DNA of 51,608 nucleotides, from the NCBI GenBank assembly GCA_012729145.1, contig JAAYDT010000085.1:1-51608 (forward strand), read 5' to 3'. The position numbers and the translations under genes are program-made. This stretch comes from Synergistaceae bacterium (GTDB taxonomy: Bacteria; Synergistota; Synergistia; Synergistales; Thermovirgaceae). The notes below the pieces were generated by a model. The model did not search any database. It saw only the letters and a program-made list of their open reading frames with translations, and was not told where the DNA came from. Below, piece by piece: positions 32,164-36,828 of the stretch; the first letter of the stretch is position 1, and every line of letters starts with the position of its first letter.

Positions 32164-32345
32164 CAGGAACCACCCCTCACCGTAGAAATGATCAAAGGAT
32201 CACTTTTTCTGTTTTTAATGATATTTGGCTAAAGATGGGTTGTCAATCCAGAGAAAGGTCGTTACTGGCATCAGGTACTCTTCGGGTCCTTTGGCTTTAC
32301 TGCTAGAATTCTGAAGTATCAAGTCCCTTGTCTGGAGGCATTCAA

Positions 32346-33251
32346 GTGGGGAACCTGGTTCTGATGGCTCTCTGTTTTATTGCTGGTGTCGTTCTTCGCC
32401 GGACCGGACGTCTCCCGGGGTCGGCCCCGTCGGTGCTGAACTCCTACGTCATACACGTTGCACTTCCGGCCATGGCCCTGCTCCATATCCACGGCCTGGA
32501 GTTCTCCCCGGAACTTATCTATTCCGTCGGATCGGCCTGGATCCTCTTCGGAGTAGGTTATCTTCTTTTCCGGCAGGCAGGAAGGATAGCAAATTACTCG
32601 TCAGGGACGTTGGGAGCCCTCATCCTTACTGGCGGGCTGGGGAATACGTCCTTCGTGGGATTGCCCATGATAGAGGTGTTCTATGGTGCGGAGTTCCTTG
32701 GGGTAGGGATCCTGATCGATCAACTGGGATCCTTTCTGATTCTCTCGACGGCAGGAATAGCACTGGCCGCCTCCTGCTCCTCCGGAAAAGTGACCGCTTC
32801 CGGCATGATCAGGAAGGTCCTGGTCTTCCCCCCCTTTGTGGCCATGATCATAGCCTTTGCGATGATGCCTCTCCCATTCCCGGCATGGGCGGAAGAGGTC
32901 CTTGGCAGGATCGGCGGCACCCTGGCACCGGTGGCGCTCCTGTCGGTGGGTTTCCAGCTCAGGCTAGATCACATACGAAATAACATCGGCCCCCTGGCAG
33001 TAGGACTTTCCTACAAGCTTCTTTTCGGACCAGCCATCGTTGCATTGCTTTTCCTGGTTATCCTTGGCGCCAGGGGACCGTTGATACAGGTCTCCATCTT
33101 CGAGACCGCCATGGCCCCAATGATCACGGGAAGCATATTGGCTGCTGAACACGACCTTGATCCTTCCCTTTCAGCTCTTATGGTCGGCTTGGGGATCCCC
33201 CTTTCATTCCTGACCCTGCCCCTCTGGTGGTGGGTCCTTTCCCTGGTCTGA
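32346..33251 (+). CDS. AEC-family (auxin efflux carrier-like) transporter
   Basis: Membrane protein of 301 residues with about 10 helices in two inverted halves, as in bacterial AEC carriers that move organic or amino acids. Characteristic are RRTGRLPGSAPSVLNSYVIHVALPAMAL at the start (usual 'lnxyvxxvalPal' pattern), GNTSFVGLPM (family motif with Asn and Pro in the crossover helix) and the final GLGIPLSFLTLPLWW. The GTG at 32346 has GGAGG 7 bases upstream and is preferred over TTG at 32328. Substrate unknown; in amino-acid fermenters a carboxylate product is a guess. Confidence 0.87.
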   Translation: MGNLVLMALCFIAGVVLRRTGRLPGSAPSVLNSYVIHVALPAMALLHIHGLEFSPELIYSVGSAWILFGVGYLLFRQAGRIANYSSGTLGALILTGGLGNTSFVGLPMIEVFYGAEFLGVGILIDQLGSFLILSTAGIALAASCSSGKVTASGMIRKVLVFPPFVAMIIAFAMMPLPFPAWAEEVLGRIGGTLAPVALLSVGFQLRLDHIRNNIGPLAVGLSYKLLFGPAIVALLFLVILGARGPLIQVSIFETAMAPMITGSILAAEHDLDPSLSALMVGLGIPLSFLTLPLWWWVLSLV

Positions 33252-33273: not shown

Positions 33274-34212
33274 CTAGCTCGAAAATGCCAATAGATACCC
33301 CGTAACAATGGATACGCCCCAAAGGATCACTCCGAAGAGGATCCCCCTGGCTCCAGCTTGTCTCACCACAGAACGGTGAAGACCGAAGCCAACCATGAAA
33401 AGCGCTGCGGCCATGAAAACTTTTCCCGCGGAGGCAAGTGCCTTGAAGAGGGAAGGGAAGGGAAGCACCGAGGAAAGAATGGAAGCAATAAGAAACAAAA
33501 CAATAAAGGCAGGGACAGATATTTTCCCCTTTTCTCCCTGCCTGATCGAGACAAGAAAGACGATCGGTGTTATCCAGAGCGTTCTGGTCAGTTTCATGAT
33601 AGTTGCTGTCTGAAGGGATACATCACCAACAATGGCGGCGGCGCCGACCACGGAGCTCGTATCATGGATGCTCAGGGCACACCAGATGCCGTACTGTTCA
33701 GGTGAAAGGGGAATCACTCTGGCCAGGAGCGGGAAGACAAAAAGGGCCACTGTGTTTAGAAGGAACACTACTCCCATGGAAATACCGATCTGCTCATCCC
33801 TGGCTTTCATCACCGAGGAAACTGCAGCAATTGCGCTTCCACCACAAATAGAGGTACCGTAAGTTATCAGTTTCAGTGTCGTTGGTTCCAGCCTGAAAAA
33901 CCTGAGAAGGGAAAACCCCAGTGAAATAATAATCAACAGGCTTACCGCGGTTTGCCAGAATCCCTGGCCTCCGACAACGATAACCTGCCTGATATTAAGC
34001 CCGAATCCGAATAGTACTACTGCCGTATTAAGGGTGATCTTCCTGATCTTCCCCAGGAAGGGGGGGGCCGATGAAGGGAAAGTATTGCTGACGGCAGCAC
34101 CAAGCAGAAGGGCAAGGCCTACTGCCCAGGTCCTGGTAAAAGGAAGCAATGCAATTATGACCGAAAGGGCAAGAAACAGAATGAAAGGAACGCTGACCTG
34201 CCGGATCTTCAC
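33274..34212 (-). CDS. YeiH/UPF0324-family membrane transporter
   Basis: Integral membrane protein of 312 residues with 9-10 helices. The motifs LNTAVVLFGFGLNIRQ, YGTSICGGSAIAAVSSV and IWCALSIHDTSSVVGAAAIVG are diagnostic for the YeiH/PSE (putative sulfate exporter) family. Sulfate or sulfonate-breakdown anions have been suggested as substrates for the family; this gene's context does not settle it. Monocistronic on the reverse strand; converges on the AEC gene with 22 bases between. Confidence 0.9.
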   Translation of the reverse strand: MKIRQVSVPFILFLALSVIIALLPFTRTWAVGLALLLGAAVSNTFPSSAPPFLGKIRKITLNTAVVLFGFGLNIRQVIVVGGQGFWQTAVSLLIIISLGFSLLRFFRLEPTTLKLITYGTSICGGSAIAAVSSVMKARDEQIGISMGVVFLLNTVALFVFPLLARVIPLSPEQYGIWCALSIHDTSSVVGAAAIVGDVSLQTATIMKLTRTLWITPIVFLVSIRQGEKGKISVPAFIVLFLIASILSSVLPFPSLFKALASAGKVFMAAALFMVGFGLHRSVVRQAGARGILFGVILWGVSIVTGYLLAFSS

Positions 34213-34486: not shown

Positions 34487-35185
34487 CTATTCAAGAACCT
34501 TCTCGATCCAGACCAGATCTTCCACAGCGATAGAGAAAGCTATCCCGCCACCGGGTCGGGTGATGCAATCGCAATCTTTCAAAGCGTTGAATATGTTGGC
34601 CGACCGTTCTGTCTCTGCAAGAATGATCAGGATCTCCTTCTCTGGGAAAAGGGGAATGCCGAGAAACTGGACATCCTTTTCACTGGCCGTACCCCTCGCG
34701 TTAAGAATCGTCCCTCCGGTGGCCCCGGCTTTGCGAGCTACGGACATAACGTCGTCCGCACACCCCCTGTTCACTATGACGGTTATCATGACCTGCTCTG
34801 TTCTCTTTTCCATGGGTCCGCTCCTCTCCAGAAGATCACAGGTGGCTGAGCCCTTTCCTGCCCGATGGAGTATCTGGGAAACATCAAGCTGGACAGCAAC
34901 GCCTAGCCTGTGTTTTCCAGAGGTGCCTCCAAAGGCTCTTAAGGCGTCCATCACGTTGCGGACGTGTTCCCCCCTTACAAGGGTCAGGACGATCTCTTCC
35001 TTGAAGTCACCGACGCAGAAGAATCCCGCTACAGGGTTCTCCGATCTGCCCCTTCCGGGTGCCAGAGTGCCCCCTTTTGCGCCGGCATTGCGGGTTATAT
35101 CCACCACGCGGTCCCCAAGGCCTTCCCTTACGATAGTGAGAAGAAGCTTGCCGCAGGATCCATGCATCTCATCCTTGACAGTCAT
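34487..35185 (-). CDS. Tandem PII-like regulatory protein
   Basis: A 232-residue protein made of two PII-like (GlnB-fold) domains in a row. The copies share the pattern I-V-x-x-G-x-x-D-x-V followed by R-x-AGA-x-GGT-x-x-x-x-RG: AGAKGGT at 34-40 and AGATGGT at 153-159, an offset of 119 residues. Each then has a T-loop-like stretch and a strand with KEEIVLTLV or EKEILIILA. PII proteins usually form trimers of single domains and control ammonium or carbon transport by binding nucleotides. It overlaps the DUF1538 gene by 4 bases (ATGA), so it is most likely that membrane protein's regulator. Ligand unknown. Confidence 0.83.
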   Translation of the reverse strand: MTVKDEMHGSCGKLLLTIVREGLGDRVVDITRNAGAKGGTLAPGRGRSENPVAGFFCVGDFKEEIVLTLVRGEHVRNVMDALRAFGGTSGKHRLGVAVQLDVSQILHRAGKGSATCDLLERSGPMEKRTEQVMITVIVNRGCADDVMSVARKAGATGGTILNARGTASEKDVQFLGIPLFPEKEILIILAETERSANIFNALKDCDCITRPGGGIAFSIAVEDLVWIEKVLE

Positions 35186-36681
35186 GGAGCGACCTCCTCT
35201 TCCGTTCTGCTTGCAAACTCTTTTTCTGACTCTGTTTCCTTGTGTTTTAGCACAAGTCCCAGTATCTGGATGGTGATAAGGGGTACCATAGCGATCATGG
35301 CAACAACACCGAAAGCATCCCTGAGAGGGTCACCTCCGGATGAAGCTGATGCCCCAAGTGTAAATGCCAGAATGAAGGTCGATGACATCGGACCCGAGGC
35401 AACCCCACCGGAATCGAAGGCTATTGCAGTGAACAGGGGCGGGCAGAAAAAGGTCAAGGCAAGCGCGATACCGTATCCCGGTATCAGGAACCACCAGATA
35501 CTGGTCCCTGAAAGGACCCGGAACATTGACATTGCTACTGCGATCGCAACTCCTGTAGAGAAGGCGATAAGCATGAATCGTCTGTTGACATGCCCTCCAG
35601 AGACCTCCTCTATCTGGTCGTTCAGGACCCAAACGGCCGGCTCGGCAAGGACAACCACCGCCCCAAGCACGAAACCGATGGGAATTAGGACCCAATTGTA
35701 GGGAGAGGATCCGATCATCCCTCCGATGACGGATCCCGCAGGAAGGAACCCCCCCTTCACCCCCACGAGAAAGATCACCAGCCCCAGGAAGGTATAGACG
35801 AGGCCTTTGATCATCCTTACGACCTGGTGTCTGTTCATGCGAAGAAGGACCAGCTGGAATATGGCCAGTATGACTGCGATCGGCGCCAGGGCCAGAAAGG
35901 CCTCGTGAACTGTCTCGCCGAGGACACCCAGAAATGCCTCGCCCAGGGGGAGCGAAACTACAGTCGTTCCCTTTGCCACAGTTGACGCTTCGCCTCCTTT
36001 GTCGATGACACCCATGGCCAGGACCGCCATTATGGGCCCTACGGAGGCAAGACCTACCAGCCCGAAGCTGTTGCTCTCGGCCTCCCTGGTACCGCGAACG
36101 GCTGCGACGCCGACCCCGAGGGCGATAATGAAGGGTACCGTCATCGGTCCCGTTGTCGCACCACCTGCATCAAAGGCGATCCCCAGGTACTCGGGAGCGG
36201 AAAAATAGGCCAGACCAAATACCAGGAGGTAGAAGCCTATAAGGAGAAAGTGATAGGGAGCCCTTAGAAGTATCCTTCCAAGCCCGACGGAGACGAAGAA
36301 GCCCACCCCCAGCGCGATCATGGATATAAGCATCGTCTTGGGTATTGAAGGGGCTACGCTGGCGACCTGGTCGGCAAGTACCCTGACGTCCGGTTCGGCG
36401 ACGGTGATGAAAAAACCCACGAAAAAGCCTGTCGCCAGCATGAGCATGACGCTCCTCTTGTGGATCAGTGCTGCGCCTATGCTGTGCCCCATGGGGAGGA
36501 TCCCCACGTCAGTACCCAGAAGGAAGATACTCAGGCCGGTTATTATCAGAAGGCCACCAACAAGGAACTGCAGCAGAAGACCCGCACCTATGGGGGCCAC
36601 GGTGGGGTAGAATACAAGGACCAGAAGCATGATTGGGATAACGGATATGCTTGTCTCTCTGAACTTTTCAAGAAGGTTCAT
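35182..36681 (-). CDS. DUF1538 membrane protein with two fused repeats (UmpAB-like)
   Basis: A 499-residue membrane protein with about 12-14 helices in two homologous halves. Matching motifs sit about 251 residues apart: AEPDVRVLADQ (95-105) and AEPAVWVLNDQ (346-356); FDAGGATTGPM (170-180) and FDSGGVASGPM (422-432); FLLGTDVGILPMG and FLVGVKGGFLPAG. DUF1538 proteins have, as I recall, been reported as two-subunit cation/proton antiporters (UmpA/UmpB); here the halves are one chain. ATG at 36681 has AGGAG 8 bases upstream; the ATG at 36732 adds non-conserved residues. Operon with the tandem PII-like gene. Transport of Na+ or H+ is inference. Confidence 0.85.
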   Translation of the reverse strand: MNLLEKFRETSISVIPIMLLVLVFYPTVAPIGAGLLLQFLVGGLLIITGLSIFLLGTDVGILPMGHSIGAALIHKRSVMLMLATGFFVGFFITVAEPDVRVLADQVASVAPSIPKTMLISMIALGVGFFVSVGLGRILLRAPYHFLLIGFYLLVFGLAYFSAPEYLGIAFDAGGATTGPMTVPFIIALGVGVAAVRGTREAESNSFGLVGLASVGPIMAVLAMGVIDKGGEASTVAKGTTVVSLPLGEAFLGVLGETVHEAFLALAPIAVILAIFQLVLLRMNRHQVVRMIKGLVYTFLGLVIFLVGVKGGFLPAGSVIGGMIGSSPYNWVLIPIGFVLGAVVVLAEPAVWVLNDQIEEVSGGHVNRRFMLIAFSTGVAIAVAMSMFRVLSGTSIWWFLIPGYGIALALTFFCPPLFTAIAFDSGGVASGPMSSTFILAFTLGASASSGGDPLRDAFGVVAMIAMVPLITIQILGLVLKHKETESEKEFASRTEEEVAP

Positions 36682-36828
36682 CCATGAAGCTCCTTTTATG
36701 TGCCGCCAGATGGGAACTTTGACTTTACCCACCCTACAGGCAAGGATATCTCAATATGATGGTCTGTTCCACCTCTTTTCGTCGCAAACAGGAAAGGCAT
36801 CGAGGAAACTGAAAGGAGAAGAAATGAA

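Follow-up and report, generated by a model that had tools for sequence, protein, structure and literature searches.

How does a PII-like protein with two domains in one chain complete a trimer, and what is its role beside a membrane protein that is itself double? The question is raised by two overlapping minus-strand genes in a Synergistaceae contig of 51,608 nucleotides, referred to below as the window, in which the following features were located.

35182 to 36681, minus strand: fused DUF1538 gene, encoding an UmpA-UmpB-like membrane transporter of 499 aa (ATG start at 36681, stop at 35182)
36690 to 36696, minus strand: Shine-Dalgarno (SD) sequence AAAGGAG of the DUF1538 gene, upstream of the ATG at 36681
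36004 to 36633, minus strand: N-terminal DUF1538 domain, UmpA-like (220.7 bits), grouping with split UmpA in the tree
35251 to 35880, minus strand: C-terminal DUF1538 domain, UmpB-like (237.5 bits), grouping with split UmpB in the tree; predicted to be inverted relative to the N domain, on the basis of its inverted K/R pattern
34487 to 35185, minus strand: tandem PII-like gene, 232 aa, with an ATGA overlap with the DUF1538 gene (35182-35185)
35192 to 35199, minus strand: SD GAGGAGGT of the tandem PII gene
34880 to 35149, minus strand: N-terminal PII-like domain, matching PF00543
34505 to 34789, minus strand: C-terminal PII-like domain, matching PF00543
34821 to 34829, minus strand: internal SD GGAGAGGAG at the PII domain junction, duplex energy -8.7 kcal/mol
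34811 to 34813, minus strand: internal ATG (Met125), predicted start of a separate 108-aa product, the free C-terminal PII domain (34487-34813)

Both genes are internally duplicated, as the preliminary description of the locus had stated: PF07556 is found twice in the larger product and PF00543 twice in the smaller, each half matching alone. The whole DUF1538 protein scores 445.3 bits against PF07556 (curated cut-off 22.6, E 3e-134, two domains), and its motifs recur about 251 residues apart, with EPD at 113 and EPA at 364, along with D188 and D440 (P0002 numbering). PF00543 scores 37.3 bits over two stretches of the PII protein (curated cut-off 25 bits, E 3.7e-9) and is found in each half searched singly (E 0.012 and 2.2e-5), so that the small protein is not a one-domain PII. 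Its halves are 34% identical to each other (E 2e-11), and their core motifs, AGAKGGT (33-39) and AGATGGT (152-158), lie 119 residues apart; both spacings agree with those first reported.

Among NCBIfam models, the nearest ones are UmpA for the N half and UmpB for the C half of the DUF1538 protein, which misses both equivalog cut-offs (NF041627, 181.3 vs 490 bits; NF041628, 157.5 vs 500 bits). For the PII protein the nearest model is the PG0541 family of transporter-associated PII-like proteins (NF045581); its score of 15 bits, the cut-off being 45, places it outside that family. AlphaFold models the fused DUF1538 protein with a pLDDT of 92.3 and a pTM of 0.91, and the tandem PII as two ferredoxin-like domains, whose relative placement is fairly confident (pTM 0.80). 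Foldseek matches the latter to GlnK, TTHA0516 and SbtB, one domain per match, with target TM of 0.6-0.7; for the fused DUF1538 model no PDB fold match was found below E 0.01, and DUF1538 proteins have no solved structure resembling them. Each gene of the overlapping pair has its own SD; a second in-frame start of the DUF1538 gene, a GTG at 36732, has no evident one. In the genome (1.78 Mb, 89.9% complete) the tandem PII is the sole PF00543 protein, and there is no second DUF1538.

The association of the two genes is tight. DUF1538 occurs in 64 of 188 Synergistota genomes, and a tandem-PII profile matches 65; when coordinates were paired, a full-length tandem PII was found directly downstream of nearly all fused DUF1538 genes. 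The G133 pair is missing from this pairing, where only its N half is listed, and the partial copies in G121 and G162 are truncated where their contigs end. Each of the seven single-domain DUF1538 genes of these genomes has a one-domain PII beside it. A profile search of the 188 genomes and of 22 from other phyla found no full tandem PII away from DUF1538, in accordance with the suggestion that the doubled regulator would accompany the fused transporter. Otherwise the profile picks up, in the phylum, only fragments on separate contigs and, weakly, a single half (G187); in the 22 other genomes its matches all lie next to DUF1538 or are a further copy of such a gene. Two fused genes, L010 (G165 contig 23) and L017 (G125 contig 25), have no PII within 1.4 kb downstream, and regulation by an adjacent PII is therefore not universal. 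G165 also carries a second fused copy, with a tandem PII, and the Treponema genome G191 carries two tandem PII copies with equal scores on separate contigs (L063, L205).

Beyond Synergistota, the pair ranges over Spirochaetota, Clostridia, Desulfovibrionaceae and Planctomycetota. RefSeq annotates it on plasmids of Paraclostridium, Vescimonas and Peptoclostridium, where the products are named 'DUF1538 domain-containing protein / P-II family nitrogen regulator'. The initial impression of an undescribed system was thus right in that the pair is undiscussed in the open-access papers found, and wrong in that the neighborhood is common, visible in RefSeq annotation and not unique to this contig.

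Four architectures were recognized among all fetched loci. A fused DUF1538 gene accompanies a tandem PII at 112 loci, many of them mutually related, with a risk of frame errors in those from metagenome assemblies, and two separate PII genes at seven clostridial loci (L065, L066, L074, L077, L090, L120, L124), where the PII domains are thus able to exist as separate chains. Split umpA and umpB genes with one one-domain PII are found at three loci (L053, L054, L059), from Alphaproteobacteria and one wastewater contig, the split status of L053 being taken from annotation. Five Synergistota loci (L032-L036) combine a single DUF1538 gene with one PII; independent non-fused loci are few, three split and five single. 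At L053, on an alphaproteobacterial plasmid, UmpA is annotated at just 90 aa, and UmpB and the PII are intact. The survey bears out the expectation that fused forms would go with two PII domains and single forms with one. What the doubled PII tracks is the fusion, not the number of DUF1538 domains, because split UmpA/UmpB, also with two such domains, comes with one PII.

Trees of the domains indicate how this arose. In that of PII, tandem N domains cluster with the first genes of the two-gene loci (98/83), and the C domains lie elsewhere; in that of DUF1538, the C halves of fused proteins are one clade (97/88) neighbored by UmpB, the fused N halves go with UmpA, and the single-domain form falls outside. 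On this evidence each of the two duplications is an old, single event, both being inherited together, and the pair is not a recent duplication. The single-domain DUF1538 with a one-domain PII (L032-L036) is likely the ancestral form. Duplication of the regulator would then be tied to fusion of the transporter in one series: single with one PII, split pair with one PII, fused with two.

The two halves of the transporter are predicted to be antiparallel. In the AlphaFold model each has an odd number of crossings, and two broken-helix hairpins surround the invariant EP and DxGG motifs (E113, D188, E364, D440). In 68 non-redundant proteins, the K+R count of the N half is 7.7 on the predicted cytoplasmic side vs 2.5 on the outer, that of the C half 6.6 vs 2.9, and the bias is as an inverted repeat predicts in 67 N halves and 63 C halves, the prediction using the odd crossings of the model. 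Single-domain DUF1538 proteins are nearly even (3-5 vs 5-6), like dual-topology proteins, which makes those of L032-L036 candidate dual-topology homodimers. A comparable series of single, split and fused genes is known for DUF606 (PMC3962082), with opposite charge bias of the halves and single-gene forms near balance; that is another family, and in DUF1538 systems it is a soluble regulator that doubles with the fusion.

Opposite charge patterns imply that the halves would show different faces to the cytoplasm. Together with the single PII of the split UmpA/UmpB pairs, this leaves unsupported the earlier idea of one PII domain reading each transporter half.

As to transport, UmpAB of Halomonas zhaodongensis is a pH-dependent Na+(Li+,K+)/H+ antiporter (PMC5484666), and a model predicting growth pH from genomes counts DUF1538 among its informative families (PMC13255231). 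UmpAB belongs to the same Pfam family and has the same order of halves, the fused N half being nearest to UmpA and the C half to UmpB, which suggests by analogy that the fused protein is an antiporter too. However, antiport was shown for the split pair only; the fused form is one chain, far below the NCBIfam equivalog cut-offs, and the paper characterizing the Halomonas pair (PMC5484666) makes no mention of a PII partner.

A possible answer to how a two-domain PII completes a trimer is found at its domain junction, which in the window reads GGAGAGGAG-cggaccc-ATG. The site was scored as the best duplex energy of a start plus SD within 17 codons around the start of the C domain, values of -6 kcal/mol or below being considered strong. 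Over 79 non-redundant tandem loci the mean is -8.7 kcal/mol and 89% are strong. The share is 14% for 3101 windows slid along these genes and 12% for the DUF1538 fusion junction; the median for true gene starts at the same loci is -9.8 kcal/mol. Synonymous recoding with the codon usage of each locus gives -3.65 +/- 0.43, and none of 200 draws reaches the observed value. The signal is collective: 21 of the 79 loci pass p 0.05 when recoded singly, few being significant alone because the E/G-rich residues of the linker and the Met already favor an SD.

Other features of the junction point the same way. Its residue alternates between Met, Leu and Val in two groups, the codon being always ATG, TTG or GTG; all 27 codons for Leu or Val are NTG, vs 21% at other Leu/Met/Val columns. 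The mRNA is more unpaired around the site than elsewhere in the gene (0.54 vs 0.41), and 18 of 20 held-out tandem loci, outside the discovery set, have a strong site. Within the genus, G180 (L049) has a GTG and a stronger SD; L108 (Synergistaceae) and L015 (Synergistota) have identical junction sequences. Sites are weak or misplaced in a few tandem genes: that of L062 scores -3.3, and L055 and L190 have none within the tested span. Taken together, the codon data indicate that the internal start is under selection beyond the constraint on the protein. A conserved SD with a start codon implies that the tandem gene probably makes two products, the full-length N-C chain and a free C domain, in which case annotation would be missing a predicted protein in very many genomes.

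A literature parallel is offered by SctQ/Spa33/SpaO, where one gene yields the full-length protein and a C-terminal domain from an internal start, and the two co-assemble; full-length Spa33 and its own C-fragment form a heterotrimer (PMC8211105). That system differs in being a type III secretion sorting platform, unrelated in family and role.

The conserved ligand-site motifs are unevenly divided between the PII domains. GxxGGT is kept in 76 of 79 C domains and 20 of 79 N domains. In the commonest class (46 of the 79 loci) the N domain has no GGT and the C domain no B-loop motif, so that both halves of a site would be present in an N-C cleft and in neither domain alone. The clade of the window differs: its N domain has GGT without the B-loop motif, and its C domain has both. 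Covariation of N-domain GGT with the C-domain B-loop is strong by count (20/20 vs 7/59, Fisher 3e-13), but the tree accounts for it with about three changes, and it does not survive an independent-pairs test; the division of site halves over N and C fits a mixed ring, and for this reason is only suggestive.

We consider it fairly probable that the two genes form an operon for a PII-regulated cation/proton antiporter, whose regulator is made from one frame as N-C plus free C. The DUF1538 protein would be one chain in which an UmpA-type and an UmpB-type half are fused antiparallel. One N-C chain and one free C would supply three ferredoxin-like domains, giving a complete PII ring (N, C, C) with no odd domains; the ring would lie against the cytoplasmic side of the transporter, as in AmtB-GlnK and SbtA-SbtB, and open or close it as a small ligand binds in the inter-domain clefts, an adenine nucleotide being plausible. 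We infer the short product, the composition of the ring, its binding to the transporter, the ligand and the direction of control. More tentatively, and with nearly as much confidence as doubt, we propose a class of PII proteins defined by nested translation, with an asymmetric N:C:C ring carrying one or two ligand sites and matched to the antiparallel antiporter. If true, this would be a PII system with asymmetry built in by translation.

PII proteins function as trimers that bind their ligands between subunits. SbtA-SbtB is an established case of a PII acting on a transporter, the SbtB trimer holding its nucleotide between neighboring subunits (PMC8352866). The present pair resembles it, and GlnK-AmtB, in that a PII-fold protein is encoded beside a membrane transporter and a cytoplasmic regulator is expected. 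It differs in having two domains per chain with a shorter T-loop region, in a transporter unrelated to those two, and in a regulator gene with two probable products. The GDGK nucleotide motif of canonical GlnB/GlnK is found at none of 115 tandem loci, in either domain, and the ligand may therefore differ.

Alternatively, only the full-length tandem PII might be made, as stacked N3 and C3 rings or as a pseudo-dimer, with a domain for each transporter half. This is unlikely: the co-occurrence of the fused transporter with two PII domains and the fair AlphaFold placement of the latter would suit it, but it is opposed by the conservation of the internal start, by the split UmpAB with its single PII domain, by the opposite orientation of the DUF1538 halves and by the 46 loci at which homotypic rings would have no complete site. 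The preliminary description had rightly seen the problem of odd domains; its solutions, a pseudo-dimer or a six-domain trimer of tandem units, are less simple than an internal start or two PII genes.

It is quite improbable that the internal SD and start are an inactive relic of a two-gene ancestor, left by repeated fusion through loss of a stop codon. Two-gene forms do exist in Clostridia, but the site is kept across phyla while the surrounding linker diverges, the transporter tree requires nine or more switches of its codon, all of them within ATG, TTG and GTG, and no comparable relic marks the corresponding fusion junction of DUF1538. Very unlikely is a co-transcribed PII signaling elsewhere, for instance on nitrogen enzymes, rather than regulating the transporter post-translationally, since the RefSeq name and the status of sole PF00543 protein in an 89.9% complete genome, which would suit it, are set against a full tandem PII never seen apart from DUF1538, a duplication state that follows the transporter, and ATGA stop-start coupling.

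A two-product regulator would matter for the family as a whole: the open-access papers found give a function for one DUF1538 member only, the PII-regulated fused form is apparently the common bacterial one, and the pairing provides a testable mechanism of control.

Some minor observations were also made. Scans of the operon for promoters and terminators gave no signal beyond shuffles, and no riboswitch or other Rfam element, sought as a clue to the substrate, was found in the window or in common to 14 loci. Viral-contig scans gave no relatives. Some DUF1538-PII operons (L059, L190-L193) are in records named Listeria phage or Bacteriophage sp., which look like bacterial contaminant contigs. Free canonical GlnB/GlnK is apparently rare in Synergistota, and at L184-L188, in this phylum, a canonical PII domain ends open frames of 575-625 aa, probably ammonium transporter-GlnK fusions. 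In the window, two membrane protein genes adjoin the operon, at 33274-34212 (minus strand) and 32328-33251 (plus strand); judging by eye, we take them to resemble YeiH/UPF0324-type and auxin-efflux-carrier-type permeases.
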